Both the position numbers and the translations under genes were made by a program. The notes under the pieces were generated by a model. The model saw only the letters and a program-made list of their open reading frames with translations, had not been told where the DNA came from and did no database searches. A stretch of DNA of 64,000 nucleotides, taken from Cephalotus follicularis (Eukaryota; Streptophyta; Magnoliopsida; Oxalidales; Cephalotaceae). The DNA is taken from NCBI GenBank assembly GCA_001972305.1, contig BDDD01001780.1, forward strand, positions 62,001 through 126,000. Direction: 5' to 3'. Below, one piece after another: positions 1,661 to 62,191 of this stretch (positions within the stretch are counted from its first letter, which is position 1; each line of letters begins with the position of its first letter).

Positions 1661-1812
1661 GACATCGACGTCTTTGGAAAGACGTCAACGCCTTTGGAGA
1701 CAGAGGTACACGTGAATGCATGGGCATGCACGTTGACATGAAGAGAAGGCATCGACACCTTCTTACAAAATGGAAAAGACATCGACGTCTAAGGAAAGAC
1801 GTCGACGCCTTT
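1661..1812. repeat. Palindromic TCGA cluster, GACATC/GATGTC word
   Basis: Units GACATCGACGTC, GACGTCAACGCC, GGCATCGACACC, GACATCGACGTC and GACGTCGACGCC. Centres fall near 1666, 1686, 1753, 1783 and 1803, so adjacent members of a pair are 20 bp apart. Linkers are A/T-rich (TTTGGAAA, TAAGGAAA). Confidence 0.85.
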
Positions 1813-2564
1813 GTAAAGAATGTCTGCCACGTTCTTCGCTGGCAGAGTAACATGCAATGGGATCTTTGGGGGCTTTACCAGATGCCTTTACAAGTGCATG
1901 GTGACGAATGGATCATGATGGGGTGCTGCCTGGCATCCTCCAAACATGCCCTCACATGGAACATGCAAGGAATTATGCCATCCTAACATGCAACCTGCAA
2001 AAGGAAGGTTAAAGAAAACAAAAGAAATGCAGAAAGAAGGAGAGTGGGAGAGAACATGAAAGTCGCCTTTATATGTAAGAGAAAAAATGTTAGGGGGAGG
2101 TCATCTGCATAAGAACAACCCTCCCCACTTCTCTCTCTCGTTTTAAAACACCAGAAGTAAGAGAGGAAAGAAAACAGTGATTGTGAGAGCCACCATTGTT
2201 GAGTTTGCTTGGAGCTAGAGATTGGAGCTCGTGGGTAGCAGTTGCTGAGGGAACCTTGGAGCTGCTGGTAGCCAGAACTTAGGAACTCATTGAGGCGGAC
2301 TTTCCAGTTCCTAACTTGGAACAATAAGGTAGGGGAAAGTGATGGATTTATATATGCATTTTGAGTTCTAAGTTAATGAATAGCATGGTGAATTGCATGT
2401 TAATGATCGAATTGAGATTCTGGACTTGTTGTAGTGTTACTGTGATACACTGAGTTGATCATGCATGTACGATTACATGAATACGTGAATCTATTGTGTA
2501 AAGGATGGATTTGTTAATGGCCTGGTGTGTTAAAATTATGGAAATGGCGTTCTGGGTTGTGAAG

Positions 2565-2900
2565 ACATCGATGCCTATGTAAAGACGTCGATGCCTTCGT
2601 GTGAATATGTGAAAGACATCGATGTCTTTTTATTGACATCAACGCCTTTTCTAGAAAAATCATAGAACTGTAAAGTTCATTTCAGATGGCCATTTAAGCC
2701 ACTTGGGATCGCCTATTTGGTTTCGATTTGATGTTCTGGTTATGTTGTTGTTAACCAGTAGCATTCCTGACACGTTGTGAGAGTGAGATTTGTTTATATG
2801 AGGGATTAACAGGTCGGATTTCACCCTCCCAAACCAAGACTCCCTCTGGTATGATAAAGATGTCGACGCCTTAGTAATAGACATCGACGCCTTTTCCCCT
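2565..2900. repeat. Further palindromic pairs in the same LTR
   Basis: Pairs at about 2565-2600, 2612-2655 and 2868-2898 use the GACATCGATGCC / GACGTCGATGCC word. Two of the pairs have 20-bp centre spacing. Confidence 0.75.
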
Positions 2901-3274
2901 GATCAGTAGGATTTTACTCAAATGGGACCCGCTAGACCCGAAACGACTCTAGGAACGAACCTAGATGCATTCTGAGCATATGTTTGCCTTGTTACTATGA
3001 TTTGTATTATGGTTGCTTTCTTGAGAGTGTTAAACCATTTTGAAAAGCTTGCATGATTATTATGACCATTTGCGCGAAAATGTATATTTGTCAATATATG
3101 AATTTATATATTTTCGAAATGATTGGGGAAGTATTTCCAAGGACAAGAGAAATGTATTGTTTTAAGTTTATGACTTATTACAACTTGTGAATGGAAAAGT
3201 ATATTTTAAACAAATATATTTGATCAAGTAATTATATGTAATTGCTTGACTTGTACTGTGAAATGCTTGTGCTT

Positions 3275-3425
3275 GTTGATTATTGGCCATCGTGCTAATA
3301 ACTTGTTGATTATTGCCATCGTGCTAATAACTTGTTGATTATTAGCCACCGTGCTAATAACTTGTTGATTACTTAGCCACCGTGCTAGTAACTTGCTGTT
3401 GGTTTAGCCGCCGTGCTAAACAACT
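3275..3425 (+). repeat. TTAGC...GCTAA tandem hairpin array
   Basis: About five units of roughly 31 bp, each with TTAGCC(A/G)CCGTGCTAA or a close variant and a CTTGTTGATTA linker. The TTAGC and GCTAA arms are complementary. E has about two units at 61422-61475. The minus-oriented copy at 5483-8470 has several degenerate units at about 6300-6460. Copy number therefore varies between family members. Confidence 0.75.
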
Positions 3426-4147
3426 TACGGAGGACTTGCTCCAAAATCGTTCGCCAATGGGGATGGAGTAAGAGTGCATGACGTTGGGGCCAGGAGGTGG
3501 CGACGGTCATGACGATTGGATTGTCTGGTTCCTTTTTGGGAACATATTTACTGCTTGTGTTGATATAACTTTTGAGTTATACTTGTACTATGAGCATGCA
3601 TATATTTTTATATATACATACGGAGGTATTCTTATTGTGAAAATTACATGTCATGGCTCATATTAACGCATTCATTCATGATACTCATTATCATATGACT
3701 CTAACTGTATTTATGGATTTATTCACTTAGCCGAGTGAGGACAAAGGCTAACCCCTACTGTAACAGATTAATGAAGTGGGGTCTTGATATGGAGCATGCT
3801 GGCAGACTTAAAGAGAAGGCTTGGATATTCTCTTTTTTTAAGTACTTGGGTTGTTGAACATAGATCATGATATGTATTTTGGATTATTTGTAACATGGGT
3901 TACATTGTTATCTCGTACTGTATTATTATTTCACGCTCCGTTTTGGGCGATCGACAGTTATGTTTGGATTTCTAGGCATCACGCAGTATGGGATGCGTGA
4001 TGCATATTTAAATTCAGCTTGTTTAAGTTATTGCTTCCGCCACTGAAGGTTTTTTGGAAATTTTGTATGAGCTGGATTATCTTATGTTGATTGCCTTACC
4101 ACTTATATGTTGTCTATGTTTCGGAACAAACAGGGTGTGACAAGTCT

Positions 4148-4491: not shown

Positions 4492-5269
4492 ATATCTTTT
4501 CTTTGTAGGTGTGCTTGAAGGAAATGTACAATGAAAGCTTCAAGCAATATATGAGTATTAAGTAGAACATATGGGCAGTAAGCACATGAGTACTAAGTGT
4601 TTTGATGATATGCTGACCATGTCTGATAATTACGTGCTTTTAATTGATATTGTAAATAACATGATTTCTGTGTTATTTTGTATGAAAATGTGCTTTTATT
4701 TATCAATTGGTATGTTGACTGATTGTATATGAAATTGAAATTAAGAGTTTGCATGAGCTGATGAAATAGTTAATAGGTTGTTAAGTCTAGAAGAGTTAGT
4801 TAGAAACGTTATTTTTTACCACGTACAGTAGGAGTAGTGAAGGATGGCTTGTATTGAAGGGAATGAATGATAAAAAGTCAGTTTCTTTACTCTTTAATTC
4901 TCTTCTTACTTCCTTCAGATCTTAAGAGTTCATTGCTCACTCGAAGTAGCAATCACCATTACACTTCCACTTGTATTTCACTTATATCAATTGGTGATTG
5001 ATCTTAGCAGGCTAACCGCTAAGAGCTGACGCTTGAATTAAAAGAATTAGTGTTTAAGTGAAAAGCATTGACGCTTTAGGAAAAGCGTCGACGGTTTGGA
5101 TGCACCTATTAGGGTTAAGCGCCGTCTGTTAATATATTTTGTCAAATCCCTAAAGTGCTAAAACGATCTTTGGCGACTTCTGAAACCACTTTAAGCCGAA
5201 ATCTTCTTCAATCCATCATTAAACACTTGCCATTGCATTAAAACTTCTTATTATCTCAACATCTATCAA
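4492..5269 (+). other. Noncoding leader of element K with palindromic units
   Basis: No ORF. From about 5028 to 5130 it holds AAGCATTGACGCTTT, AAAGCGTCGACGGTTT and related units of the AGCGTC/GACGCT word. I do not see a clear LTR end or a Met-tRNA primer-binding site here, so the 5' LTR of K is missing or too decayed to recognise. Confidence 0.45.
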
Positions 5270-5482: not shown

Positions 5483-8470
5483 TGTCACACCCCGTTTTTA
5501 TAACAACAATAATAGTGGTGGCAATTAACATAATATCTGGCTTATACCAATTTTATGAAAAAATTTAAACTTTTCAAACAGGTTATATCTGACGGAAGCA
5601 TTCGATTATAAGCCGAATTAACAACGTAACACGCATCCCATACTACGTGTTACTAAAAGACAACATTCCATAGTTAATTGCCCTCAAAATGGAGAATGAT
5701 TAAAACATGTCGATACAATATTTCATCCAATACAGTAATCCATACTTAACAATTATCCATCAAATACAATAAACATTTTTCCAGGTTACAATAACAGTTT
5801 AATAAGCCCAATTGGAAATACAAGTCCCTCAGATAATATTAAATACGTAAACCATCAGTACGGTAAACATTAACCATTTGATACCAAACCAGTTTATCAA
5901 TAACCAAGAGAATACAATTCCAATGATTAACATTATTACAACTTGTCCTTCCTCCATGCTAGTCCATATTCGTCCCACTGCATCAATCTGAAATTGTAGG
6001 GGGTTAGCCTTTGTCCTCACTCGGCTAAGTAGAGAAGTTATAAATACAATTCGGGAGTAAAGATAATGCATGTCATGTAATGAATGCACAGTGATGCATC
6101 ACAATATATATAACAGTATATATATATATATATATTCACAGTAGAATGCAACCCTATCAGGCTATGCCAACACAACCAGCAATCATGTCCTCAATGGACC
6201 AATCAATCCAATCAGTACATCACAAAGGACAACAATCTAACAATCATGTCACAAGGACAAATCAATCCAATACACTAAGTACAAACAACGTGCACATTAC
6301 TAGCACGATGGCAAGTAACAACACTCAGGACACACTAAACGATACTAGCACAGTGGCTAAGTACCAACCCTACCCCGCTAACAGCAACACTAGAAATCAC
6401 GATACTAGCACGGCGGCAAAGTACCAACACTACCCCGCTAGCGGCAACGATAGCAATCACATTCAACAATCCACTCAAGTAATTTATAAGTTATAAACAC
6501 TTGAAACATATATATTTGTCACTATATATATAACAACCCATTTTCCAAGTAAGTTATGCTTCATAAAATACTTGTAACACATATTTGTTTAAAATATGTA
6601 ACAATCCTTTTAAAACAGCATATTTATAAATATGCATAAGTCCCTTTTTAAAACTATATTTCGGTCTGAACATAGCTGTTTATACAAAATAATGTTGGAA
6701 AACATCATGAGTGCAACTCCCTAAAATGACAAACATTTTAGAAGTAAAGGATTCATTTCAATCAACAATCCAATTCAATCAACAATCCAGACCCAATATA
6801 AATCAAATGCAATGCAATCATATGCTCAAACGTGCCCAGAGTCGTTTCTAGAGTCGTTTTGGGTCAACTGATACAATTCGAGTCAAACCAACCAAACCAG
6901 TGGGATAAGCGTTGATGCTTATCCTCAGGGCATCGACGCTTATCCTCAGGGCATCGACGCTAATGTCCTCTAAGCGTCAACCTTTCATACCAGGCGTCTG
7001 CGCTTACTCTAGTTACAAACGCGTCAATCTTCTTCATTGGCGTCGATGCTTCAAGGCTAGTACCCTTGAGCATCGATGTTTATCTCGAAGGCGTCGACGC
7101 TTTTCCATAAGTGTCGACGGTTAAGTGATAGCAGACAAGATCACATCAACCAGTCATGATCCAAGGGAGAATCCATCCCCAAACGTACATGCAATCCAAG
7201 GCACATTCCCTTCAAGTATAATACTCACAGTGGGTTAACATTTCATGTAACACAAACACCAAACCATGAACCAGTCATGCATCCACGAGCGAACATTACA
7301 GACTGCAAATGTTCGAACAAGGCGTCGACATTTTCTTTAAGTGTCGACGTCTATAGCCTTAACACGTCAAAGCGTCGATGCTTCTAATGTGAGCGTCGAC
7401 GGTTAAGCAGTTCAGTGCATTTCGTCTTCCTCATTTCAATGAACCAGGGAAAACAACTAAATAATCATGCAAATCCAGTTCGATTATTCACTTAGAATAC
7501 ACATGCATGGTCAGTTGCATATCACAGTAGCCATAACAACAATCCAGTAATCCCAATCCATCCATATCAACATGCAATTCATGCATTTCATCAATGGCAA
7601 CACATTAACTTTGAACTCAAACTTGCATACATAAATTCCCTACAATAATCCCTTACCTTTAGTTCTAAGTTAGGAACTGATTGTCCACCTCTTTGTGTTC
7701 CAAAATCCGGTCACAACAGCCTCAGGTTCATTCAGTAGCTGCAGGCCACAAGCTCCAAGTCCCGAGCTTCAAGTTGGTTCAACAATGGAGGAAATCCTCT
7801 TTCCTTCCCCTACTGGTTTTCCTCTAACCCACCGGTTATTCTTCTTTTTCTTCTCACAGGTGTTTATCCGAGAAAGAGGAGAAGGAAGAGATGTTTTATG
7901 CTAGCAGAAACCATCTCTCCTTCTCATCTGGCCATGCATGCATTTCACAGGTGTTCACTCTTCTCTTCTTGGTTTTGTTTCTTTTCCCTTGACTTTTGAA
8001 GGTGTGCAAGTGATGACGACACCTTACCTTTTACATGCCAAAGGCTGGACACACGTCCCTAATGCCTTTGACACGTCCCCCTACACCTGCCTCATTGCCC
8101 ATGCCGGTTAATGCCACCAGCCAGCATTAATTGACTGTTGTTGCGCACTTAGCAGGGCACAAAGCATTGCCAGTTTGTATGCAGTGTCGACGCTTTAACT
8201 ATTTCGCACAATGGCATCGACGCTTTCCTTCAACATCGACGTTTATGCTCGTGTTTCATGGCTTAGGCGTCAACGCTTTTGGCTCAAAACAACGCCGTTT
8301 TGCCTCAATGCATGCCTTGAACATTTCCTTATCATTCCTCTTTCAAAATTCAACATTATAAAAGAGAAAACATCATCAAAGTCCAGAATTCTGCTATTCT
8401 CATTAATTTCATACATGAAATTACATCGGGAATTAAAATATTACATTATGTGAAAATCCCGGGCGTTACA
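5483..8470 (-). mobile_element. Solo LTR, family 1, inserted in the K ORF
   Basis: On the minus strand it starts TGTAACGCCCGGGATTTTC and ends GGGGTGTGACA, flanked by TAAAT on both sides (5478-5482 and 8471-8475). It matches the LTR at 1488-4142 and that of E in its ends, its TTAGCC/GGCTAA block (near 6006-6030, reversed) and its TAGCACGGTGGC array. Its palindromic clusters use the AGCGTC/GACGCT word, not the GACATC/GATGTC word of those relatives. A minus-strand TATA-like element may lie near 8357. An (AT)n run lies at about 6115-6136. Confidence 0.9.
6907..7124. repeat. Phased palindromic array, AGCGTC/GACGCT word
   Basis: Ten units with centres I place at about 6913, 6934, 6955, 6978, 6998, 7025, 7044, 7074, 7095 and 7115. 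Most steps are 19-21 bp (21, 21, 23, 20, 27, 19, 30, 21, 20). Units include AAGCGTTGATGCTT, GGCATCGACGCT and GGCGTCGACGCTT. Smaller groups of the same word lie at 7320-7400 and 8185-8280. Confidence 0.88.
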
Positions 8471-8795: not shown

Positions 8796-9829
8796 TGTAA
8801 TAACCGCAAATTTCAATTTATGTATATTGTACAATTGAGAAATAAAATATACATGAAACTGAGATTTAATGTCCAATTACCATGTAAGTTGTGATTATCG
8901 GATTAATTGAGCCTTAATGGAATTGGGTTAGACTTAATAGAAGGAGATGAGAAGTTGTATAATTGAAAGGTTAAAGAAAACAGATAAGGTGCCAAAACTG
9001 TCGACGCTTTACGCCTAACCTTTGGCGCTTTGTACAAACGCCAAACCGTCGACGCCTAACCTTAAGAGTCGACGCTCTAGGCCTCACCTTCGAAGCTTTA
9101 ATAAAACTGTCAACGCTTTGCACGCTGTCAGGAATGTGCTACGCGTCAATTACAATTGAACAGTGGCATTTAATTTTTTATGACATAGACATGTGTCCAG
9201 AGACGTTTTAACAACACCAAAAATGTGTCCTTAGCTGCTACCAACACCAGATTAGTGGCATGCATGTGTCTCTAACCTGTAAGAATAGAAGGACAGTGAA
9301 GAAAACAAAACAGAACAATGAATGGGAGATAGAAAAGATAAAATTCTAATGGTTTGAGTTAGATGAATTCAGATGAACCTTGATACTAGAAACATTTATA
9401 TCAGTGGTTAAGAGTATGAATTGAGTGTTGGAATGCTTGAAAGGAGAGGATAAAATTTCCTAGAGATTGCATGTTGACAGTTGAAGTTTCAAAGGGAGTT
9501 TGAAGCTTAGATCCTCCCTGGTAAGTTATTCATTCGAGTTACTTGTGTTATCATGATTCAAAAATTGTATAAACATACTAAATTGATATTATAACTACTG
9601 GTTAACCTACATGTATAGAGTGAATTTCTGGGAAGTGAAGATTGGATTGGAGGGAAAGTGTTGAGCTATAGAATATGAAGAATCAATTCAAATTGATTAT
9701 GGAATTTCAGTTGAGGTAGGGGTTTTATGACATGATTTTGAACATATACTGTGTACTCCATGTTGTGATAAGTTATACATGATTTCATGTTGTTATTGAC
9801 TGGATTGAGTGATGAATTGAATATAGTAT

Positions 9830-10304
9830 TGTCACACCCCGTTTCACTAACAACATATAAATCCAGCTTATGCAATTTACCATAAATTTAAAACTTTTCA
9901 TATCCAATAACAACTTGCGGAAGCATCAAATATAAGCCGAACACATCGCGCATCCCATATTACGTGATGTTTATAATTGTCCCAAACATGACTGTTGATC
10001 GCCCAAAACGGAGCGTGAAATAAAACAATACATCAATACGAGATAATAAAGTAAACCACGTTACAATTAGTCCCCGATACATATCATGATAAATCCAAAG
10101 GAGTCGACGTCTTTCCAAAAGACGTCGATGTCTTTTTCCCCAGAACGTTGCCGTTTCAACTTTGACACACACATTCCAATTCCAAGACCATAAATAGGGT
10201 TTTAAGCATACTTTGAGTTCAAAACTCGACATTCTCATTAAATCAAGTTTAATGATTACATCAAAAATGGAAATATTACATTCAGGAAAATACCGGGCGT
10301 TACA
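9830..10304 (-). mobile_element. 475-bp internally deleted family 1 LTR
   Basis: On the minus strand it has family 1 ends (TGTAACGCCCGG...GGGGTGTGACA) but is only 475 bp, against about 2.7-3.0 kb for relatives. Both ends match 1488-4142, and one palindromic pair remains at 10099-10130 (GTCGACGTC, GACGTCGATGTC). The flanks AGTAT (9825-9829) and ATTAT (10305-10309) are an imperfect target duplication. Either it inserted short, as a miniature element, or it lost its middle later. Confidence 0.78.
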
Positions 10305-10324
10305 ATTATATTCTGGAGAATTGT

Positions 10325-10525
10325 ATGAACGCCACAAAGCGTTGACGCTCAAGTAGTGACCATCGACGCTGAAGGATTTTGTATTTATGTTTTTTAGTGA
10401 AAATTGGTTGACGCTTTGGATAAACCTTTGAAGGTTAGGATAAACCTTCTAAGGTTAGGATAAACCTTTGGCGCTTAATACAAACTGTCAACGGTTAAGG
10501 ACAAACTGTTGACGCTTAAGGAAAT
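10325..10525. repeat. Tandem 19-21-bp units with decayed palindromes
   Basis: Successive units such as AAACCTTCTAAGGTTAGGAT, AAACCTTTGGCGCTTAATAC and AAACTGTCAACGGTTAAGG repeat about every 20 bp. The self-complementary halves are still visible, for example AACCTT..AAGGTT. This shows the array as a true minisatellite with a palindrome in each unit. Confidence 0.75.
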
Positions 10526-11798
10526 TGTCACCTTCTAAGTGGAAAACAGTACTAAAATTGGATGGTATCTAACTGTTTATGCTTGACAAATATGAATTCA
10601 TATCGGATTACTGGATTCATACTTCTAAGGATCAATACCTACTATGCATTGAAACGATTGTGCACTGCCACTGTTTGATTATATCTACTATATGATTTCA
10701 TATTGCACTGGTTTCCAAGTAGGACGACTCCACATTTCATCCTTGCTATGTGTAATCAATCTATAGCATTTACCTGGCTTATACAACCATTGTTCGCTTC
10801 ACATAAGTGGTTTGAGTGTACTGTTTGGTTAAAGCACATAGAATTTCACCATTTCAATAGGGGATGATTTCCATAATCAGCCTCTACTCGATGAAATCAG
10901 AATATAGAAATCGTGCGACTACACTTCTATTGTTTGATTGCATATATTTCTACTGTTTGTATCGTGGAATTGTTAGTGATATTGTTACTGATTTCTCCTA
11001 AGTGAGAATTATTGAAGTATTAATGTTTTCTCTAAGTGAGAACTAATGAAATGTTTTATTGTTTTCTTAAGTGAAAACTTAATGTATCAAGTATTTTATA
11101 ACTATAAACTACTTGAAAATACTTTATTGAATTGATTGTTAGTTACAAATCATAAAGTGTAATATAACCGAATGCAATCATAGAGTGTACGCATCCCTGG
11201 CTTGTGTTGGTTATTGGTTACAAATCATAAAGCGTAATGTAACCAGGATGCTAAACATAGAGTGTAGGTATCCCTAAATCGTAATGTTTGGTCCTTGAGA
11301 CATGTTTGATTAAATGATTGTTTAGCCAACTTGGCCTGTGTGCTTATATATATCCGCACATATATACATACTGCTTCGGATTGTAAACTGTCATGCATAG
11401 TTCATTTATATATTCACTCTCATGCATGATTCCTACTTAGCCGAGTGAGGACAAAGGCTAACCCCTACAATTTTTAGATTGACAGAGATTACTGTGGACG
11501 TGCTGCTGAAGTTGTAACTTGGAGAACTTCTATTCCGAATAAGGTTGTTAATTGAAATGTTGTGTTGTATTGTAATGATTAGTGTCATATCCCGTTACGT
11601 TATATTTACATTTCAAACATGTAATGTATAACTTGTATTGTATTGTGAGCACGTAGTATGGGCTGCGTGCGAAATAATTAAATAATCCGGTATATCGAAT
11701 GCTTCCGCAAGGTTAATTTTTGTGGATTTGGTAATTGCTGGATTATTAACCTGATAACCACTTATGTTAAAGGATTAAAAACGGGGTGTGACACTTTT

Positions 11799-13543: not shown

Positions 13544-15412
13544 TGTTGACATTTATATCTCAATCCTAGTTTTAATGATGACATATTTGCATCTAATCAT
13601 TTTACTTTATGTGCAAATTTGAGAGAAATGCAAGTTGAAAAAGCAAAGAAACAAAACACAAAGCGCTAGCAATTAAACTATGTTATGAGCATAAAGCGGC
13701 AATGCTTTATATAAAACCGGCAGCACTTAGAGGTTAAACGCGTCAACGCTCACTTTAAACCATTGGCGCTTAGCAAAGAAGAATGATAAGCTAAGAGGCA
13801 ACGCTCTATCTAAACCATCGGCGCTTAAGGAATAAAGCACGGCGACGCTTTATGTTAACTGTCGACACCTTAGAAGCAGACTTCCCAACTTCGACAGATT
13901 TGGCAACTCAAAAGAGAAGCTAAACAATTGAACAATGCTCGGTAAGACCAAAAGATGCCAAAGGCAGTTTTCACAATTCAGAGAAAAGAAAATCTGATCC
14001 TATGCAACCAAGTGAAATCAAATGCTTGGCAAATTTTAAGAACTATGGCAGACCTTAAGGCTCAAAGTCAGACCACTAATGAGAGGAATCCAAACTACAG
14101 AAATACCAGAAAAGAGAAGGTAGACTTCTAGCAATGATCGGCAACTCAAGGTAGAAATAAGCAAGAGAAATCAGACCTCTACTATGCCAGAAAAGAGGAG
14201 TTCGACTACAAGAAATCAAAGAAGAAAACAAGAAATTAGAGAAGAAAACCAGAAATCCAGAGAAGAAAACCAGAGAAGAAATTCAAAGGAAGCATTCCAG
14301 AGCAGATTATATCCAAGCTCCATAGCAAACTTTAGAATTGCAAAGCATAATATCAAAGCTTCAGGAAATCAAAACTTGAAATCAGACTTGAATAAGTTGC
14401 AGCAAAACAAATCTTGAGGACCGACTAGTGTTCAAAATTGCAAGGGAGAAATCATATCTGAAGCAGACTAGAAGACATTAAAACTTCAAAGATCAGAGAA
14501 AGAATAATGTAAAGTTACGCTACAACTGGCGACGCTTAAAGCAAATAGTCGATGCTCAACTACAAACCGACGATGGTTTACTTAAAGCAGCAGTGCTTTA
14601 ACTAAGCGCTAGAGTAAATCGCAAAACTGTCGAAGACTTAAAGCTAGAAAATTGTGATTAACGCATAATGTTAACATAAGCGGCAACGCTTATAAAGAAT
14701 TAGTCGACGCTTTTTGTGCGGAAAAGCTCAACGAAGTTTTTCATGCAACACTTCCCAATACAACTACGATGGGTCTGTGACTTAACAAACGGTTATATTC
14801 TTCAGAAGTCTATAAAAGGAGACCTGGATCAAACAGAAAAAGAAAGAGAATCATAACAACAAAACAAGAACAACAAGAAATCAACAGAAAACATCACAGT
14901 TCTTCATATTAGTCTTCTTTGTCATTTTGAGCATATCTTTTATCTGCTATTTGTGAGCATATCTCTGAGCTGTACTAAGTCTATATCCAACCTAATAGAG
15001 GTTATACAAAATCACAAAACCATTGTATTTCTTTGATTGAAAAAGGGGAGTGAACCCGAAATTGTACGTGATTGAGGTCAATCAAAGGGAATTGTAAAGG
15101 TGCGCCAAATAGCTCCTGGAAACATATTCAGAGATTGTATTAAGGTCGAATACTGGTGGAATCTCAAGAGGTCTTGAGAAAGTGGACGTATGCAAGAGAT
15201 TGGCCGAACAACTATAAATCGTGTTTGCAATCCTCTTACCCTTTCTCTTTATCTAATTAGTCGGTACTATTTTAATTATTCTCTGTTTTGTTGTCTGATA
15301 GTCCATTACTGCTTTACCAGAATTGCTGACTTAGCCTAATATTACTGACATAATCCTAAAAGTTCATTAATACTACAATTCATCTCCCTCTTGTAGTATT
15401 TCACCTCCAACA
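13544..15412 (+). mobile_element. 3' LTR of Copia-like element K
   Basis: Starts TGTTGACATTTATATC after a polypurine tract and ends CACCTCCAACA. It has a good TATA box at 14811 and shares a downstream block (about 15155-15230) with the LTR of D: GGAATCTCAAGAGG, CTTGAGAAAGTGGACGTA and GCCGAAC. Palindromic units lie at 13660-13870 and 14520-14720 (AAGCGGCAATGCTTT, AAGCGGCAACGCTT, GTCGACGCTTT), mostly decayed versions of the AGCGTC/GACGCT word. The A-rich reading frame at 14184-14417 is low-complexity LTR sequence. Confidence 0.85.
14811..14818 (+). promoter_or_regulatory. TATA box of K LTR
   Basis: TATAAAAG in the context AGTCTATAAAAGGAGACC, followed by an A-rich leader with ACAACAAGAACAACAAG. 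This is the usual layout at the U3/R border of Copia LTRs. Confidence 0.65.
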
Positions 15413-16449
15413 AATCAAACATTCACACGTGGAAGACTGTTGTGTAGTTGATTTACGCATCAACACCTTTAAACCCCTAGGTTACCCCTAGTGGACGAGT
15501 TGTGTCTCGTGAGTGTTTTTAGTGAATAAACACAGAAAATTCATGATTCCAAAAATAGTGTAGATTCTAACTTTGGCATAAGGTAAAATACACATAAATT
15601 TCAAGACAAAGATACTTAACTCGAGATTAAGATACCAAAGGGCATCTCACAGTTGAACTTACTACCTCGTATCGATTCAAGTAACAAGCATGGATCTTAA
15701 TTAGGGACTCCCCTCATATCTTCCAAACACTACCTTACCCTTTATGTAGAACCACTTATGGCATCAAGAGCACCAATGACTTAGGCTTTGGAGAATTTTT
15801 TATCCAACAATATTTTCAATGCAATAATGTTTTCTTCTTTTTTTTTTCTTTTTTTTACAATATAATATAAAATTCCTCTTTTGTTGAACTCACTTTGTTC
15901 CTTCACTACTATTGGCTTGAATGATATGGATGGAGCAAACACTAGATGCCAAAGTTAGTAAGTAGCTTCATAATTTATTGTGCATATATCTATAAGACAT
16001 TGGTACAATATGAGAACAATAAAATTCATCCAATCAAAATTCTTGCAATGCCTTAGCCTCTCAAGCATTCCTATATGACCCATGTAACGAGATTTATGCC
16101 AATTACTCTCAAACCAAATGGAACTAGATGTAGAACAGCCCTAGGACTTACTTACTCAAGTCATATATGCTACAAGCTAAAACTGAATTTAATAAAGGAA
16201 GAAAATAAGAGAAATTAATTTATTGTTTTTTTTTCTTTTTCTTTTCAGTATTTTTTTCTTTTCTCTTTCTTTTAATTAAGTTTTGTCTCAACTCCTAATC
16301 AAAGCTCAAGGAACTATAAAACACAAAAGGGTCCATCCAATGAAATAAAGTTGTGTTCTTATTTTCTAAGTTAAATCCCATAAGAAAAATACACGCCAGT
16401 CACCTTCCTCTCAACAGGCTTTATTCCTTCTCATGTTGGAGTCCCTAAG

Positions 16450-36019: not shown

Positions 36020-36350
36020 AAAGACATTGATCCCCAGCCCATGGACATCGATGTCTTTTGCTTTAGAATTTAGCATCTTTGATTCCGCAGCAAAGACATC
36101 GACGTCTTTACCTTGGGATCTCTTCTACCTAGAGTAAACATCGATGCTGAACATCGATGCGTATTTCCAGGCTATTTTTATTGAAACGCGTCGACATCTT
36201 TGTCCAAGGACATTGACGTCTTCGGCCAGAACTCTACAGATACAGAGAAAGACATAGATGCCTTTCAAAGACATGGATGTCCTTCTACAGTTTTAAAGGA
36301 ATGCCCTGATACGCATCGATGTCTTTGGGCAAGGGCATCGATGCTTATCG
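36020..36350. repeat. Palindromic cluster, GACATC/GATGTC word, A 5' LTR
   Basis: About ten units, including GACATCGATGTCTTTT, AAAGACATCGACGTCTTT, GCATCGATGTCTTT and GGCATCGATGC. Pairs have linkers of 7-9 bases in places (for example TTTGGGCAAG). The matching cluster in the 3' LTR is 56450-56765. Confidence 0.82.
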
Positions 36351-38153: not shown

Positions 38154-40672
38154 TGTAATAACCGCAATTTGCAATTCGTGTATATTGTACTCTTGATGAA
38201 TAAAATATGCACTCACATTGAATTTCAATGTCCTTTTGTATATGGTTTGTGACTATGGTTTTAATTGAAGGAATAAGCTTAAGTAACCAAAACCAGCCTC
38301 AAACAGCCGACTACTTTGATTCAAGGTGTGACAGTCGACTGTCACAGGATAACAGTCGACTGGCTTGGCACAGACAGGTGTCTGTGCATGGCATCTAAAA
38401 TAGGGCAGGGGCAGCCAAAACGTGGCTTGCATGATAGATGCATGCCACCAGGTGTAAAACATGCAGACATAGTGCCTTGCATGTACTATATTCCATCTGC
38501 AGACCTGCAACCTACAAAACAGAAGAGAAAAGAGTGAGAAGAGGTGCATGTGAGAGAGAGAAAGAGGAAAGGCTGAACAAGGAGTAAATGACTGAAATGA
38601 GAATTGGAATGCAATTGCCTTTATAACAGAGGTTGCATGAGTGATTAGAGAGTTAGAGACACTTGAGATAGAAGAAAACGTGTGGGGCAATAGCTGTTGC
38701 AAGTTGAGGCAGGGAGTTTTCAAAGTGCAATTCGGAGCTCAAATCAACTGGTAAGATCTTAGGTTGACTTATGTTACTGGTGTATGGATATACAAGTTCT
38801 AGGTAGGTATAAATGCATGCATGTAACTGCTATTAACATCCAGCTCTTGGATTACATTTATGGAACTTTGCCTGTTGAGGTTGAAGTGTTCAAAGAGAGT
38901 TAGAGCTTAGAATTTCATTGGTAAGCTACTGATTCGACCTCACTTGTTGTTGTCATGATTAAACACCACATAAACATACTAATTTTAATGTTTACACCTA
39001 CTATTTACATGCAAGTAGATTAAATTGCTGGAAATTGAAGTTTGAGTTGGTGTAAAGAGTTTTGAACACAAAGAGAGAAATCAACTCAATTTGATTTCGG
39101 GATAGCGATTGAGGTAAGGGTTTTGACATGTTTTAAAATATATAATATGTATATCATGCCTGGATGTTTTCTGTATGATTGCATGTTATGGATTGATTGA
39201 AATTGGATTGTGAGCATGCATACTCTGTTTTATTAATCTTCTGCTTGATGATTCTGGACAAAAAACAGTCGACTGTTTAATCCCAATAGTCGACTGCTCA
39301 ATGTAAACAGTCGACTATTAAGGACAACAGTCGACTGGCTAATGAAAATAGTCGGCTATTCTTATGAACAGCCAACTGTTAAGTAACAAATTACTGATAT
39401 TAGTAGCCGTTAGGCTTTAAATTATATGTAATTACCCTGGTCTCCACATGGGATGATTGTAACAGTCAATCCTGACCTTAGGTAGTTATATTACAGAAAT
39501 CAAACAACGTATGTACTCCTTGTGAGAGTTGTGCATGAATGACTAGGGTATGCTAACATCTTGTTGAACCCTTGAATTGTGATTGTCCCCTGTTGTTTAA
39601 TGATGCTTATACATACTGTATAGCTATTAAGTGTTCAGAAATACTATTGTTACACTTAATATTAATGATTGAACCAACTAGTGCTATAAGCAGAAATATG
39701 GGTTTTCTTTATTGTTTTCAAAATGAAAACTTATCGTTAACTGAATTACTGAATTTCCTCCAATGAGAGGCACCCTTACTGTACTGAATACCGTTTCCTC
39801 CAATGAGAGGTACGGTTACTGAATGTTAAATGTTTCTAAAAGAAAACAACTATTATATTGCATATTATAGATATATGTAATAGTGCTATTGAATTGATTG
39901 AATTCTTTGTCTATGTTATTGTCGTTAGTCGAGTGATAGGAGACATCATTGGCTACGGGGTGGTCCTATGTGCCAGGAGTTGGCTAGAGCTTCCACCATA
40001 CTTATCTGCAATGCAGATCCTGATTGTTACCTGCCCACTAATGCCAGCAGAATTGACCTGATCTATCATCTTCGGGGTGTAGGGTGATAGTTAGGTGGTG
40101 CACAGTTGGTGCTAGGAGTTAGCGACATGTGACACCCAACCATAGTACTGATTGATTTTACCCTTGTGTGGTATTCCTGAATTGTATTGTCTATGGCCAC
40201 TCGGCATGGTTTCTTATATATATTGAAATACTTATACATATGTTATTTCAGATAACTAACATGCATGTTACATTTATATATTCTTTATGATGCTTTATTC
40301 CTACTTATCCAAGTGAGGACAACGGCTAACCCCCTACAATTTCAGATTAAGTGAAGGCGTTTGGGGAAGTGCTGCTGAAGCTTTATTGGAGAGCTTCTAT
40401 TTCTTGTTAAGGTTGTTGTTCACTATGTTAATTGTATTGAATTGAACGATCATACTCCGTTGTTGTTATCTTTACATTTCCAATATGTAAAAGAATAATT
40501 ATTGTTGGTATTGTATAAGCACGTAGTATGGGCTGCGTGCGGATAATTTTATAATCCGGCAATGAAATGCTTCCACTTATGTTAATGAATGTTGATTAAT
40601 GTTGAATGCTGGATTATTGTTATAACTGATATCTCCATATATGTTGTCTCTAGTGGAAAACGGGGTGTGACA
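38154..40672 (+). mobile_element. Solo LTR, family 2, inserted in A gag
   Basis: Starts TGTAATAACCGC and ends GGGGTGTGACA, flanked by AATCT (38149-38153 and 40673-40677). It has a TATA-like CTTTATAAC near 38620, palindromic units at 38302-38365 and the phased array at 39265-39379. A variant of the hairpin block (CTTATCC...GGCTAACC) lies near 40302. Its relatives are 8796-11793 and 1-792. Confidence 0.92.
39265..39379. repeat. Six-unit phased palindromic array, ACAGTC/GACTGT word
   Basis: Units ACAGTCGACTGT, ATAGTCGACTGC, ACAGTCGACTAT, ACAGTCGACTGG, ATAGTCGGCTAT and ACAGCCAACTGT. Centres at 39270, 39291, 39312, 39332, 39353 and 39373 give steps of 21, 21, 20, 21 and 20 bp. This is the clearest array in the window. 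Linkers of 8-9 bases are A/T-rich and differ from one another. Confidence 0.95.
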
Positions 40673-45798: not shown

Positions 45799-47320
45799 TG
45801 TTGAGAAAATGCGACAATATGGCAACCTTAAATGACAAAAATAATTTGTATGCGGAAAATACAAATTAAGAAATGAATATAAACAATCACACAATCAAAT
45901 AATAAGAATTAAAGAGATAAGGGATAGAGAGTGTGCAAACGAATTTATAGTGGTTCGGCAAATCTATGCCTACGTCCACTTTCTCAAGAACCCCTTGAGA
46001 TTCCACTAGCTACCACTAGCAACCTTTGATTTTCGGCTTCCGGGTGCAAATCAAAGCAAACCACCTTACACTTGATTTTGGGTTCCTGGTGCAAATCAAA
46101 CAAACACCTTACACTTGATTTTGGGTTCCGGGTGCAAATCAATCAAACACCTTACAAGGGTTCACTCCCCTCTAAATTCTCACCAAGGGTTTTAACACCC
46201 TTTTTACAATGATGGATTTGTAAAGATAATTTGTGTTTACTAGTAACCTCTCAAAGGTTAGATATGAAAGTGTAAACAAGTTGCAAGCTTTGAATGTGAA
46301 AGTGTATACTCTAGCTTGATTTCTTTCTCTTTTGTTTGAAGATGTGCAAGATGAGCTTTTGTGATTGGATGTTCAAGAATTGTTCCTCTATCACCTTGAG
46401 CTTGTTTCTTGGCTTGTATTTATAGCATTCTTCAAATTATAGCCGTTGCAAAAGTCTTGGGCATATTGGATATAACATTTTGTTAATGCAGCTTTGTTTT
46501 AGTCTCTGCTGGCAGAAAGACGTCGATGTCTTTCAAAAGGCGTCGATGTCTTTGCTGATATTTGCCGTTGAAAGTGCGCCAACTAGCCGTTCCATGTTTC
46601 CCGGGTCTGTCCATTTAAAAAGACGTCGATGTCTTTTTTAAAGGCATCGATGTTATTTCTAGGAAATCTCCAGGCATGTGAATGTATGAACATCACGTCG
46701 ACTACTTATTCCTGGGTCGATGTCTTTTCTGGTTTTGGCAGGTTAATCTTGAAAGACGTCGATGTCTTATGAAAGGGATCGACTTCTTTTGTACGGACGT
46801 CAACTTCTTTGACTGTATGGATCGATGTCTTCACCAGCATTTGTCCTGTAACTTTGGGCAAGAAAGACGTCGATGTCTTTCTTATAGGGATCGACTTCTT
46901 TTGTACGGACGTCGACTTCTTTTCTGGAAGGTCAATGTCTTTTGTCCTGCAGAAGATTTTTGCCTTGACAGCAAACTTTCTAATGTCTTGCGCATTAAGC
47001 AAACAAGTTAAATGCAAAATTTGTAATCATTAAAACTTAGGATAGGGACTAAAACCCAACAACTTCTTTGACTGTATGGATCGATGTCTTCACCAGAATT
47101 TGTCCTGTAACTTTGGGCAAGAAAGACGTCGATGTCTTTCTTATAGGGATCGACTTCTTTTGTACGGACGTCGACTTCTTTTTCTGGAAGGTCAATGTCT
47201 TTTGTCCTCCAGAAGATTTTTGCCTTGACAGCAAACTTTCTAATGTCTTGCGCATTAAGCAAACAAATTAAATGCAAATTTGTAATCATTAAAACTTAGG
47301 ATAGGGACTAAAACCCAACA
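45799..47320 (-). repeat. D 3' LTR with a 259-bp tandem duplication
   Basis: On the minus strand it starts TGTTGGGTTTTAGTCCCTA and ends TTTTCTCAACA. The segment 46801-47059 is repeated at 47060-47317, so the LTR start sequence occurs twice; CAAC lies at the join. A minus-strand TATA box (TATAAATAC) lies near 46412-46420. Palindromic units with the GACGTCGATGTC word lie at 46518-46640, 46690-46950 and 47080-47205 (for example centres 46524 and 46544). Confidence 0.88.
46022..46160 (-). repeat. 48-bp triplicate in D LTR
   Basis: Three units with CTTGATTTTGGGTTCC, GGTGCAAATCAA and AAACACCTTACA. Confidence 0.75.
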
Positions 47321-49380: not shown

Positions 49381-49393
49381 TAATCCTATGTTC

Positions 49394-55735: not shown

Positions 55736-57124
55736 TGTAACGATTCGAATTCCCTTTTTGTACTATTGAGCATTGTTCGTGCATATACTGTACCGTATTG
55801 TATCATATTGAACTGTATTGTAATGTATTTAATTGAGGTATTCCTATACCTATTGTTATTGTATTGATTATATGCATGTATAGTCGGGATTTTGGGCTGA
55901 GTTTCAGAGAATCGGCAGAATTGACTATATAAGTCAATTCTTTACTCTCATTTCTCATTCTTCTCCCTCTCTCTATCGTTCTCCTCCTCTCTCTCTACTG
56001 GGCAGCCTCTATCCTTCTCCATAATAGCTCCGGATTGTCTTCTCCATTAACAAGGACAGCGATTGCAAGTCTCTTTCTTACGGATTGAACAACATAGTAG
56101 CCAGTTCTTGAGTGTTCACGGCCATCGATCGATCGTTAGCTCAACTATTGAAGCTTCGATTATAAGTAGGACTTCTCTACTTGTATTGCCTATTGCTTAA
56201 TTGATTGATTAATTGAATTGCATGATTGATTGAATGATTGTATTGTATTGAATTATGAAACTAGGGTTTTTAGTGGTTTCCTTGATCTAACTGATCTAGG
56301 AAGATTGAAACTGAAATTTGAAGGTTGTAACTAGTTTTACTAACCTTACGAGATTGATTTTAACCCTTGGTTTTCAAAGAATGTGTTTTAAATGGATTTT
56401 GACTTGAGATTTGCTGGTTTTCTGCACAAAAATTGACCCTGCCTAGCAGAGACATCGATCCCCAGCCCATGGATATCGATGTCTTTTGCTTTAGAATGCA
56501 GCATCTTTGATTCCGCAGTAAAGACATCGACGTCTTTGCCTTGGGATCTCTTCTCCCCAGAGAAGACATCGACGTTGAACATCGATGCGCATTTCTAGGC
56601 TATTTTTATTGAAACGCATCGACGTCTTTGTCCAAGGACAATGACGTCTTCGGCCAGAACTCTACAGATATAGAGAAAGACGTCAATGTCCATCTACAGT
56701 TTTAAAGGAATGCCCTGGTACACATCGACGTCTTTGGCCAAGGACATCGACGCCTATTGGGCTGAATGGAACTTTTAACTGTATTAAAGCTAGTTTTTAA
56801 TTCCTTTTCACATTGTTGCTTGACCGGAGCCTCACTTGAGGTATTCAAGCATTTGAAACACAGTTTTCCATGGTTTTCAAAGATTGAATTGATAAACTGA
56901 TAGAGTGACAGCTTGAGCCATAGGCGACGACCCAGTGACTTTCTTTGACTAGATAGATTTTCTTTCCTATCTTGTTATTTGATTGTCAACGTCTATTAGC
57001 TATTGATTGATTGAGTGAGTGATTGAGCCATAAGTGTTGTGAGTCTAAGTTAGGAAGGTTTGACGCATTTTCCCCTTTCTCCATTAGACGTCACCACTTA
57101 TTGAAATTGTATTGACATTGTACT
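55736..57124 (+). repeat. A 3' LTR, left part
   Basis: Matches the 5' LTR from its start to about position 1390, where C' has inserted after GTACT (57120-57124). It includes the TATA inverted repeat (55918-55940) and palindromic cluster 56450-56765 (for example AAAGACATCGACGTCTTT at 56520). The rest lies beyond the window. Confidence 0.9.
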
Positions 57125-59497: not shown

Positions 59498-62191
59498 TGT
59501 AACGCCTGACATTTTCGTTTTTGTAATATTCTGTTTTAAGATGTAATCTTATGTTGAATTAATGAAAATGTTGGAGATTTTGACCTCAATATTGACACCA
59601 AACCCTAATTATTGTTTTGGGAAAGAAATGTGCAAGATATACAAAAAACGGCGCAGTTTGAGGAAAACGCGTCGATGTCTTTTGAAAGACGTCGACGCCT
59701 ATGGGAGCAAAGGCGTACGTGAATACATGTATATGCACGTCGATGTAGGCAAAGACATCGACCCCCTCATGTGAAAAGGGAAAAGACATCGACGTCTATG
59801 GAAGACGTCGACGTCTTTGGAAAGAATGTCAGTCACGTTATGAACTGACAGAGTAACATGCATGAGGGAAGGAATTAGAATCCTTGCAGACGCCTTGAGG
59901 CACGGGAAGGAGACGTGTTGATCATGCACAATGGCCTCCTGACCTGCATGACTGGAGAAGGGTGAAGTAGGTAACAAGTGTTACCATGCATGCAACCGGC
60001 AAAAGAAAACATGAGAAGAAAACAAAATGGAATGCAGAATTCTGGGAAAGAGGGGGAGAACACGAGAGTGTTCATTGAATGCTAGGAGAAAGAGGATGGG
60101 GGAGCCATCTGCTTAAGAACAACCCCCTCCCCACCTCTCTCTTTCGTTTAAAACACCAAAGGAAAGGAAGAGGAGAAAGCCAGTGAGTGGGAGAAAGAGA
60201 GATACACCATTGTTGAGCTTGATTGAGCTAGAGACTTGGAGCTCGTGGATTGCAGTTGCTGAGAGGATCTTGGAGCTGCTGTGGCCAAAACCTTGGAACT
60301 CAAAGAGGTGGACTTACAAGGTTTCTAACTTGAAACCAGAGGTAGGGGAAAGTGATAATCTTATACATGCATTTTGGGTTTTAAGTTAGTGAATACCATG
60401 ATGAATTGCATGATTATGGATGAATTGTGATTCTGGACTTGTTGTGATAACCACTGTGATGTACGGAGTAAACATGCATGTGCAAATTACATGAGTATTT
60501 GAACTGGTTTATGTAATGGATGATTTTGATAATGGCCTGCTGTGTTAAAACTATGGAGAAAACATTCTGGGTTGGATAAACGTCGACGACTCCCTGAAGA
60601 CGTCGATGTCTTCGTGTACGTATGAAAAGGACATCGATGTTTGAGTAAAAGCATCGACGCCTTTTCTTGCTATTCATAGAATAGTAATGTTTACTGCAGA
60701 TGGCGAATTGGCCACTTGAGGTTGCATGTTTGTTTACGGATTGATGTTCTCGTTACATATCCTAATAACCAGTAGCATTTCTTACGCCTTGCGAGGTTGG
60801 GTTTCGCTTATATGAGGATTTAAGGGCTGTATTCTTCCCTCCAGAATCCAGACTCGCGAACTGATATCTCCTGGTATCATAAAGACATCGATGTCTTTGT
60901 AAAGGCATCGACGTCTTTGGTCCAAAATTGCCTGGGAATAACTGTACGAGAGGTTGACGCCTTAGGGTAAAGACGTCAACGCCTTAGGGATAAACATCGA
61001 CGCCTATCCCCCTGTTTGAAGGAATTTCGCTCGAATGGGACCCGCTAGATCCGAAACGATCCTAGGAACGATCCTAGATGCATTCTGAGCATATGTTTGC
61101 ATTATTACTGTGAATTGCATTATGGTTGATTTCTAAAAAGTGTTAACCATTTTGAAAAGCTTGTATGATTATTATAATCATTTTGTATGAAAATTTATAT
61201 TTGTCAACATATGAATATATATATTTTCGAAATGACTGGGGAAAGTACTTTCCAAAGACGGAGAAATGTTTTAAAGATTTGTTACACAATCAAATGTATT
61301 GTTTTAAGTTTTATAACTTATTACAGCCTGAAAACGGAGTAATATATTTTCATAAATATATTTGATCAAGTAATTATATTTTATTGCTTGACCTGTACTG
61401 TGTAATGTTTGTGCTTGTTGATTATTAGCCGCGGTGCTAATAACCTGTTGATTGTTTAGCCGTCGTGCTAAGCAACCTGTACGGAGGACTTACTCCAAAC
61501 CGTTCGCAAACGGAGATGGGGTAAGAGTGCATGACGTTGGGGCCAGGAGGTGGCGACGGTCATGACGATTGGCTTGTCTGGTTCCTTTTGGAACATATTT
61601 ACTGCTTGTGTTGATATAGCCTTGTGAGGTTATACCTGTACTCTGAGCATGCATATATTTTTATTTGTATATATGGAGATAAAATTACTATGAAAATTAC
61701 ATGTCATACTGCATCATAATGCATTCATTCATGATACTCATTATCATATACCTCGAACTGTATTTATGAGTTTATTCACTTAGCCGAGTGAGGACAAAGG
61801 CTAACCCCTACTGTAACAGATTGATGGAGTGAGGTTTGATATGGAGCAGCGCAAGGAGACTTAAAGAGAAGACTGAGTTGTTCTTATATTATTATGTACT
61901 GGTTTTTGAACAATGATTATAACAATTGGATTATTGTAACGTGGTTTATTATTCGTACTGTATTATCACGCTCCGTTTATGGGCGATCGACATGTTGTTG
62001 GGTTTATATAAACTTTGTGGGTATCACGTAGTATGGGATGCGTGATGCATATTTAAATTCAGCTTATTTATGACTATTGCTTCCGCTACTGAAGGTTTTT
62101 GTTTTTCGTATTATCGCTTGAGCTGAATTATGTTGTGTTGGTTGCCTTACCGCTTTAATGTTGTGCCTTCTTGTAAAAATGGGGTGTGACA
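59498..62191 (+). repeat. E 5' LTR, family 1
   Basis: 2694 bp, TGTAACGCCTGAC...GGGGTGTGACA, preceded by ACCGG (expected target duplication; the other copy is outside the window). Palindromic groups at 59655-59830, 60578-60665 and 60880-61010 use the GACATC/GATGTC word (GACATCGACGTC and GACGTCGACGTC about 19-20 bp apart near 59785-59815). TTAGCC/GGCTAA hairpin at 61780-61804. It is followed by a primer-binding site, which fixes the orientation of the whole family. Confidence 0.92.

Follow-up and report, generated by a model that had tools for sequence, protein, structure and literature searches.

How does one and the same palindromic minisatellite come to lie in the LTRs of retrotransposons from different superfamilies of a single host? 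The question is raised by a 64,000-nucleotide stretch of Cephalotus follicularis DNA (contig BDDD01001780.1; the window), which is made up of plant LTR retrotransposons nested in one another; the 20 best gag matches, in line with this source, are 78-94% identical. The original prediction held that palindromes with an RTCGAY core may form a shared, undescribed module in the LTRs of unrelated Copia and gypsy groups.

Distribution of the palindromes

RTCGAY was found 138 times in the window, against a mean of 44.2 under a first-order Markov model (maximum 56 in 20 simulations). Near-palindromes, defined by at least 6 of 7 matching arm pairs, were centred on TCGA in 37 cases versus 3.35 by chance, an approximately 11-fold excess (simulation maximum 7). 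Among the 16 centre tetramers tried, the runners-up were TATA (34 vs. 5.7) and ATAT (35 vs. 9.5); GTAC (7 vs. 2.7) and CGCG (2 vs. 0.7) were also enriched, and the others stayed within about twofold of expectation. A chance origin of the palindromes was rejected on the basis of this enrichment over the Markov model and their clustering in LTR sequence.

Sites were defined by at most 3 mismatches to any of five 14-bp consensuses picked by eye, and by this definition the window contains 112 sites; both the consensuses and the types were defined after the data had been inspected. The core of the unit is GTCGAC, with AGAC, AGC, ACC or ACA arms, and three half-site types ("dialects") were distinguished: type I (GAC arms), type II (AGC/ACC arms) and type III (ACA arms). 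The carriers are listed below.

1..800, minus strand: F3, F-family LTR of which the beginning is present (start near 779), with type III sites, 499-597 among them; 5 sites
1488..4142, plus strand: E1, solo LTR, type I array, TSD AGTCT/AGTCT, ends TGTAACGCCCGG...CAGGGTGTGACA; 10 sites, lying around LTR positions 180-317, 1083-1134 and 1378-1399
5020..5100, no strand assigned: three clustered type II sites outside the delimited LTRs
5483..8470, minus strand: E2, solo LTR, type II array (AGC/ACC arms), TSD TAAAT/TAAAT; 14 sites
8796..11793, plus strand: F2, solo LTR, type II, interrupted by E4, TSD CTTTT/CTTTT; 9 sites outside E4
9830..10304, minus strand: E4, E-family LTR with an internal deletion, nested in F2, TSD AGTAT/ATTAT (one mismatch); 2 type I sites
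13544..15608, plus strand: K, Sirevirus-like Copia LTR, type II array, tentative 3' end; 7 sites
18880-19392, 24891-25116 and 33055-34110, no strand assigned: G, type II array-bearing sequence split by C and B; 10 sites
25117..27785, minus strand: LTR of B, a gypsy element of putative chromovirus type (25117-33054), type II array, TSD ATTAG/ATTAG; 11 sites
35301..36708, plus strand: A5, 5' LTR (aligned part) of the gypsy element A, type I, 91.3% identical to 55736-57117; 4 sites
38154..40672, plus strand: F1, solo LTR inside the gag region of A, type III (ACA arms), TSD AATCT/AATCT; 9 sites
45802..47320, minus strand: 3' LTR of D, a Sirevirus-like Copia element (45802-49431, TSD TATGT/TATGT), type I array; 9 sites
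55736..57124, plus strand: A3, 3' LTR of A, type I, cut by an I-like LTR at 57125, PPT AGGAGGGGAGAA; 6 sites
59498..62191, plus strand: E3, 5' LTR, type I array, followed by what we take to be a PBS (TGGTATCAGAGC) and a gag-like ORF at 62298 that has no Pfam match; 12 sites

Palindromic RTCGAY copies are present in every place where the original prediction put them, K being the weakest carrier (3 intact RTCGAY, 7 sites within 3 mismatches), and further copies lie in F3 (499-597), in E4 (10103-10126) and at 5028-5090. Array-bearing LTR sequence holds 108 of the 112 sites: 93 lie inside LTRs bounded by array-independent evidence (TG..CA, TSD, PPT or PBS; only tentatively so for A5, A3 and K), and the remaining 15 are in G and F3, both of which are without set ends. 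The other DNA of the window (25,135 bp) accounts for 4 of the 112, three of them in the one small cluster at 5028-5090. The elements and LTRs without an array (C, I, the I-like LTR next to it and the deleted LTR of B) add up to 13,366 bp and contain no site; C and I, with 0 sites within three mismatches, thus lack the array as had been predicted. H, for which the prediction gave no position, could not be assigned to any element. Within the window, the arrays are nearly confined to LTR sequence. A scan of viral contigs for the 18-bp type I palindrome returned 7 contigs with a single site each and no array.

The same palindromes occur in Copia LTRs, with D bounded by a TSD, as well as in the Ty3/gypsy LTRs of A, B and E. 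The Copia assignment of D rests on a Retrotran_gag_2 match (E=5.9e-31) at 48445-49392, inside the TSD-bounded element; no pol was found, a motif scan giving no RT motif, and a protein search with the ORF spanning the D array gave no candidate. The K LTR resembles that of D outside the array, and a possible TSD of K (AAGAT) overlaps the PPT region. For the gypsy elements, a gag piece of A at 37902-38153 matches Retrotrans_gag, and B has gypsy-type pol matches (RVT_1, RNase H and protease) together with a match to SH3_Tf2-1 above the cut-off and one to Chromo that, at 21.2 bits, stays below its cut-off of 25.1; judging by its RT motifs, B is presumably of the Tekay type. The other LTR of B (32545-33054) is without the array-bearing stretch 25538-27687. 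A separate insertion of the array was nevertheless rejected, since 25668-25988 resembles the I-like LTR at 57769-58109, so that the stretch is LTR sequence lost from the other LTR. As for G, which is interrupted by C (TSD TAAGC) and B (TSD ATTAG), its ends were not found and a TSD search gave no convincing pair. G could thus not be bounded, and its labelling as Tat-like found no support; it lies within what we take to be an Athila-type pol.

Anatomy of the unit and its half-site types

Spacings of 20 or 21 bp make up 59 of 119, and Tandem Repeats Finder recovered 20/21-bp units in several arrays, so the term minisatellite applies to this part of the spacing, but not to the distances of 30-32 bp (10) and 42 bp (7). 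Helical phasing past the 20/21-bp peak was not significant (p 0.21-0.33) and was dropped for the wider spacings. Most of the R/Y degeneracy of RTCGAY comes from GTCGAC through CpG decay (58/129 vs. 3/50). There are up to three CpGs per unit, and the CG at the centre is kept in 73 of 97 sites, while the outer CGs are intact in 116 of 194 cases (p=0.009); the centre is conserved best, as for a dimer interface and not as for a hairpin loop. Between homologous LTRs, this conservation of the centre is weak (E3-E2, p 0.03; E1-E2, 0.08; E1-E3, 0.14; 3/8 directed comparisons), and it is not seen between F1 and F2 (kept in 1/6 and 1/4).

The two arms covary across LTRs, where positions 4 and 6 were matched by 0/2000 shuffles and position 5 by 12/2000 (96 sites), although such site-level permutations overstate independence, because the sites in one array are mutual copies. 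Within a single LTR, covariation of the left and right arms is hardly present (position 4 reached by 22/2000 shuffles, positions 5-9 by 191 to 1030), and arm pairing is hence a family-level property, which is equally expected from the plain duplication of one palindrome.

Each LTR uses mainly one dialect (108/111 sites, against a shuffle maximum of 69%). The half-sites of the Copia element D are closer to those of the gypsy LTRs E1 and E3 (0.64 and 0.60) than to those of the Copia LTR K (0.38), the values being 0.73 for E4 and 0.62 for D against itself. In a consensus-free comparison, D scored 0.577 against the gypsy LTRs of type I, as opposed to 0.393 against those of type II (0/2000 permutations), while K behaved in the opposite way, with 0.383 to type I and 0.450 to type II (1/2000). 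A5 gives a poor separation of the types: it scores 0.45-0.49 against D and E1/E3/E4 and 0.42-0.43 against E2 and G, with 0.38 for A5 against itself. Related LTRs, in turn, carry unlike dialects: E1 and E3 are type I and E2 is type II; F1 is type III and F2 is type II. In summary, the dialects cut across lineage, including the Copia/gypsy boundary, an observation that is new in this analysis.

Descent of the LTRs and known systems

LTRs were compared with 14 bp hidden per site and with A3 omitted as the twin of A5; masks of 20 bp were too harsh, as they also erased the known homology between E1 and E3. With the motif masked, no similarity was detected between Copia and gypsy LTRs: six cross-group pairs vanished, whereas 17 homologous pairs were still recovered. 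Even unmasked, the best matches of D to E3, A5 and E1 cover 39-42 bp, i.e., two units (D-E3: 42 bp, 85.7%). Since what the superfamilies have in common is limited to the motif with its pairing at 20/21 bp, common LTR descent fails for Copia versus gypsy. An independent small mobile repeat was also rejected: the similarity ends at the motif and no common boundaries were seen in the window, as the original prediction required. The predicted lack of relationship does not extend to the groups within gypsy, as E1, E2, E3, F1, F2 and F3 are mutually homologous in the masked comparison (F3 vs. F1, 85% over 80 bp), and descent accounts for the sharing among them. In E1, E2, E3, F1 and F2, the site clusters lie at corresponding LTR positions despite divergence (E1/E3 vs. 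E2, 58% identical; F1 vs. F2, 54%).

The module cannot be called undescribed, since palindromic LTR motifs (RM) of Sireviruses (Ty1/Copia) have been known since 2010. According to excerpts of PMC2829016, an element has no fewer than 8 and as many as 32 copies, which tend to cluster in the upper LTR half, ahead of the TATA box; two of the motifs have the present core (Tnd-1, ACAATCGATTGT; Vitis, CGGTCGACCG). D conforms to this pattern: its array (about 147-796 of a ~1519-bp LTR; 9 palindromic sites at 148-796) ends ~100 bp before a TATAAA near 897, only the last two sites (776 and 796) lying just beyond the LTR middle. The 7 sites of K precede a TATAAA located at 1268 of its LTR, which has four such sequences; in the gypsy LTRs, the arrays could not be linked to a TATA box. 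The usual CGG-CCG core of the RM is lacking here, where the core is GTCGAC, Tnd-1 being an exception in the same excerpts (PMC2829016). There, the RM is termed Sirevirus-specific and absent from other elements, whereas here the gypsy elements A, B and E also carry such motifs, in several half-site types that cross lineages (PMC2829016).

Another Sirevirus trait is a linker with several AGGGGGAG octamers close to the 3' LTR; D has six of them (47439-47664, minus strand) and K three (at 13043, 13126 and 13391, plus strand), and the two strands of the window together have 11. The terminal PPT octamer AGGGGGAG expected 10 bp upstream of the 3' LTR is replaced before the AT/TG by ATGGGGAG in D (one mismatch) and AGGGTAAG in K (two mismatches), and both are called only Sirevirus-like because of this deviation; PPT deviations are also noted for ToRTL1 and Tnd-1 in the excerpts of PMC2829016. 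D and K have, by eye, the AT/TG attachment site and the inverted repeat at the PPT/LTR junction, the latter being present also in almost half of the classic Copia elements, as the same excerpts state (PMC2829016). With respect to the Copia gag/pol trait, D qualifies through Retrotran_gag_2 and K only through the similarity of its LTR to D.

Among the literature matches listed (mostly titles and abstract starts), nothing was noticed on an extension to Ty3/gypsy or on shared dialects, and none of those for any of the six motif strings seemed to concern LTR arrays by title and abstract start. The heat-response site of COPIA elements differs in sequence from the GTCGAC palindromes. As in the case of the arrays, the COPIA heat-response elements are short sites in LTRs, and there they are sites for a host factor; the excerpts of PMC5059998 state that in Brassicaceae they were gained species-specifically in most families and that the ONSEN element grew by duplicating a proto-element. 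In contrast to the arrays, these sites have a known factor, heat shock factor, and the paper speaks of COPIA families (PMC5059998). The excerpts of PMC3601003 and PMC12844716 contained nothing on palindromes.

Origin and role of the arrays

We favour, with a probability of about 0.5, the reading that the arrays are dimer-binding sites for a putative host nuclear factor, gained convergently or via short transfer. We infer protein binding, a host origin of the factor, an effect on transcription and a route of gain. The arrays would sit in the regulatory (U3-type) part of the LTR as multi-copy dimer sites, each unit being a dyad of two half-sites that face the GTCGAC centre, mostly at intervals of 20-21 bp. 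They may be bound by a nuclear protein of the host, or by a few paralogous DNA-binding proteins differing in half-site preference (GACGTCTT, GACGCTT/GACGGTT or GACTGTT), which would raise transcription of the element or relieve its silencing. Copia and Ty3/gypsy elements of one host could have arrived at the same sites if half-sites that arose by chance were duplicated locally or, alternatively, if a stretch of one or two units (~40 bp) was copied between elements, and the half-site type would have switched within lineages.

A wider transfer, in which the array arose in one lineage and reached the others by template switching or recombination, so that the similarity reflects horizontal descent, is possible but unlikely. 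It would agree with the two-unit match between D and E3, with the type I half-sites of D being as near to E1/E3/E4 as to D itself and, descriptively, with the K clusters (158-277 and 988-1163) being placed much like those of gypsy E, F and B; yet the masked comparison shows nothing common beyond the motif (six cross-group pairs lost, 17 homologous ones kept), and two types would require at least two separate Copia-gypsy transfers. Somewhat less probable is an anti-silencing target, whereby an element-encoded, methylation-removing protein would bind the arrays, several lineages would exploit this one trans-acting protein and the types would shift by an arms race. VANC proteins remove methylation at tandem motifs of VANDAL transposons, and these targets are, in the excerpts of PMC5735166 and PMC10398659, non-coding, different between related copies and read by a sequence-specific protein. 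The different dialects of related LTRs (E1/E3 vs. E2, F1 vs. F2) and the at most three CpGs per unit would suit such a target. On the other hand, VANDALs are DNA transposons with a protein of their own, the precedent includes no protein common to Copia and gypsy, and no VANC-like gene was noticed in a Pfam comparison of 18 ORF pieces, Pfam possibly holding no VANC model. The CpG decay of the arrays also points to past methylation of these copies, which is, however, expected for any silenced copy.

We regard as improbable a neutral growth of functionless minisatellites from simple palindromic seeds with a core shared by chance: local duplication would explain the 20/21-bp units and the homogeneity inside an LTR, but hardly a core and arm types common to Copia and gypsy in two dialects, the lack of sites in the 13.4 kb of array-free elements and LTRs, or the clusters kept at like positions in LTRs that are only 58% or 54% identical. 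Similarly improbable are hairpins with a UCGA loop per palindrome that would act in the RNA or single strand, e.g., in packaging or as a source of small RNAs. As RNA, a 321-nt piece of the D array (46510-46830) does fold better than shuffles (z = -2.8, 0/100), as is expected of any palindrome-rich stretch, but the predicted fold consists mainly of distant pairing instead of one hairpin per unit, and the presumed loop, TCGA, is conserved best while the stems vary. Since the D array is upstream of the probable TATA box, it would be in RNA only via the 3' LTR.

The reading as dimer-binding sites for a host factor may be taken further, although we hold this extension to be doubtful: interchangeable palindromic dialects common to the Copia and Ty3/gypsy LTRs of one host would be read by related DNA-binding proteins, and dialect switching independent of ancestry would create regulatory guilds of unrelated elements, co-activated or co-protected by one trans-acting factor, possibly encoded by another element. 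If the pattern is genome-wide, a motif class published as Sirevirus-specific would be widened to Ty3/gypsy LTRs, and unrelated retrotransposon superfamilies would converge on, and switch versions of, one cis-regulatory code in one host. This would point to a specific nuclear factor and make the gain of LTR enhancers and the joint rise and fall of element families testable.

Element anatomy and nesting

The window holds decayed plant LTR retrotransposons nested within one another, and the whole analysis covers this single 64-kb window, with about a dozen LTR copies. Element limits were set by TG..CA ends and target-site duplications (TSDs).

Delimited elements and LTRs (E and F, Ty3/gypsy)
1488-4142: E1, TSD AGTCT
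5483-8470: E2, TSD TAAAT
8796-11793: F2, TSD CTTTT
9830-10304: E4, TSD with one mismatch
19393-24890: C, array-less, TSD TAAGC
25117-33054: B, gypsy element, TSD ATTAG
38154-40672: F1, TSD AATCT
41443-53053: I, array-less, TTATT at both flanks, read by eye
45802-49431: D, Sirevirus-like Copia element, TSD TATGT
59498-62191: E3, 5′ LTR; TGGTATCAGAGC, which resembles a PBS, and a gag-like ORF follow

As we read the nesting, I lies inside A, a gypsy element whose two LTRs are 91.3% identical and to which the pol at 53054-55676 was assigned by position. D lies inside the 3′ LTR of I (LTR pair 97.9% identical) and was therefore inserted later than I, and F1 lies inside the gag region of A. E4 is read as lying inside F2, C and B inside G (array-bearing pieces at 18880-34110, ends not set), and G inside an Athila-type pol. 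This minus-strand pol (16640-18780 and 34118-35340) is interrupted by roughly 15 kb of nested elements; the lineage names Athila and Tekay are assumed from RT motifs. D is only 3.6 kb long, with pol and nearly all of the 5′ LTR seemingly missing, yet it is TSD-bounded. The best 20 of 968 protein matches to the Copia gag (48445-49392) were 78-94% identical, and the 15 of these 20 with a readable organism name were all from Cephalotus follicularis, which makes this species or a close relative the probable source of the DNA. The gag-like ORF after E3 matched regions of A and B at 39-46% over short stretches and had no match in a Pfam scan. Inside C, which has no array, there are long tandem repeats, with a period of about 47/95 bp at 20261-20705 and of 57 bp at 21925-22087 and 22095-22445.

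Enrichment, structure and position of the palindromes

The window contains 138 copies of RTCGAY, where 44.2 were expected, and 37 TCGA-centred near-palindromes, where 3.35 were expected (20 Markov simulations). The next-ranked of the 16 palindromic centres tested were TATA (34 vs 5.7) and ATAT (35 vs 9.5), followed by GTAC (7 vs 2.7) and CGCG (2 vs 0.7), the remainder being within about twofold of expectation. At up to three mismatches to five 14-bp consensuses, which, like the three arm types below, were picked after inspecting the data, we counted 112 sites. Array-bearing LTR sequence held 108 of them (93 in LTRs bounded independently of the arrays, 15 in G and the gypsy LTR F3), and four lay in the 25,135 bp of other DNA of the window, where the density at four mismatches (0.68/kb) was at background level (0.88/kb, five simulations). 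No site at this threshold was found in the 13,366 bp of C, I, an I-like LTR (at 57125) and the deleted LTR of B. This supports the original prediction that the palindromes sit in LTRs of both Copia and gypsy elements and are lacking from C and I; within this window they are nearly confined to LTR sequence. Three of the four sites in other DNA, type II palindromes within about 60 bp (5028-5090), lie outside the delimited LTRs, probably in an LTR remnant.

The predicted RTCGAY core stood as a palindromic centre, but that centre is GTCGAC: R was A in 58/129 half-sites after C, a CpG context, against 3/50 after A or T (p=1.5e-7; 96 sites, with the 3′ LTR of A and one of the two D duplicates left out, and omitting 13 half-sites with a preceding G, eight A and five G). 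CGs were intact at the centre in 73/97 sites against 116/194 for outer ones (p=0.009, duplicates kept). Left and right arms covaried between LTRs (positions 4 and 6 matched by 0/2000 shuffles, position 5 by 12) and hardly within single LTRs (position 4 reached by 22/2000, positions 5-9 by 191 to 1030). The commonest distance between neighbouring sites was 20 or 21 bp (59 of the 119 spacings of at most 110 bp); helix phasing of wider spacings was not significant (p 0.21-0.33).

In D, one broad array spans about 147-796 of the LTR (1519 bp) and precedes a TATAAA near 897, whereas K, the other Sirevirus-like Copia (LTR 13544-15608), has two clusters (158-277 and 988-1163), a layout that seems to resemble those of E and F (about 156-317 and 1073-1241, counted from the start of the LTR and with E4 removed from F2) and B (134-255 and 1028-1256). 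E LTRs have an additional cluster at 1355-1557. A tandem duplication at 98% identity (46801-47321) covers the initial 259 bp of the D LTR together with the array sites in it, a direct instance of array growth. The two LTRs of B differ by an array-holding 2.15-kb stretch, which the LTR without an array seems to have lost by deletion. The best-conserved part common to E and F LTRs (E about 2223-2488, F1 about 2131-2203; 34 bp identical between E1 or E3 and F2, 94% over 51 bp between E2 and F2) may be a polyadenylation or end signal.

Arm dialects and the origin of the sharing

Arm types and their carriers
Type I: AGAC..GTCT, AGGC..GCCT; gypsy E1, E3, E4, A and Copia D
Type II: AAGC..GCTT, AACC..GGTT; E2, F2, B, G, the 5-kb cluster and Copia K
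Type III: AACA..TGTT; F1, F3

With one lone site of the 112 dropped, 108/111 sites were of the majority type of their own LTR or cluster (maximum of 5000 shuffles, 69%). A consensus-free comparison of half-sites agreed with this typing: D scored 0.62 with itself, 0.64 with E1, 0.60 with E3 and 0.38 with Copia K. Among gypsy LTRs, D was nearer to those of type I than to those of type II (0.577 vs 0.393, 0/2000 permutations) and K nearer to type II (0.450 vs 0.383, 1/2000; three sites, six half-sites), permutations that are only indicative because sites in one array are non-independent. The 5′ LTR of A does not tell the types apart well, scoring 0.45-0.49 with D and E1/E3/E4 and 0.42-0.43 with E2 and G.

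When 14 bp were hidden per site, the LTRs grouped by similarity as E+F, B+I+I-like and D+K, with A, G and C single, and no Copia-gypsy pair remained among the masked LTRs of the window. Unmasked, six cross-group pairs appeared (D-E3, D-E1, A-E3, E2-G, G-K, A-D; best matches 38-43 bp), each within one dialect type. Descent accounts for the sharing inside E+F, where dialects changed all the same. Between Copia and gypsy the prediction that common descent is no explanation stands, and the sharing requires either convergence or the passing of a very short stretch between elements. B bears arrays, yet I and the I-like LTR, which are related to it, are array-less.

Known systems and a possible function

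PMC2829016 describes palindromic repeated motifs in Sirevirus LTRs, placed before the TATA box in no fewer than eight and as many as 32 copies per element; the motif is called Sirevirus-specific there, and those of Vitis (CGGTCGACCG) and Tnd-1 (ACAATCGATTGT) share a GTCGAC-type core. This kind of module is thus already described, whereas it had been put forward as possibly undescribed. D and K resemble Sirevirus in linker octamers and junction, but their terminal octamer is inexact, so we file them only as Sirevirus-like. The ONSEN heat elements offer a precedent for repeated gain of LTR sites (PMC5059998), VANC targets one for rapid motif change (PMC5735166, PMC10398659), and insertion of plant LTR elements is reported to show a weak preference for palindromes (PMC6911290). 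C is inserted inside an array of G, a single case that is uninformative on such a preference.

The best reading of these sequences is that the arrays are predicted dimer sites for a putative host nuclear factor, which would bind the arrayed palindromes as a dimer, the arrays serving the LTR as an enhancer or anti-silencing element. Against this, centre-CG conservation was weak among the homologous LTRs compared and absent for F1-F2. A role as RNA hairpins is disfavoured, since the centre is conserved while the stems vary; 321 nt of the D array did fold better than shuffles (z -2.8), as expected from any palindrome-rich stretch. Relative to the literature surveyed, what is new is the motif in gypsy LTRs and the dialects that cross lineages.
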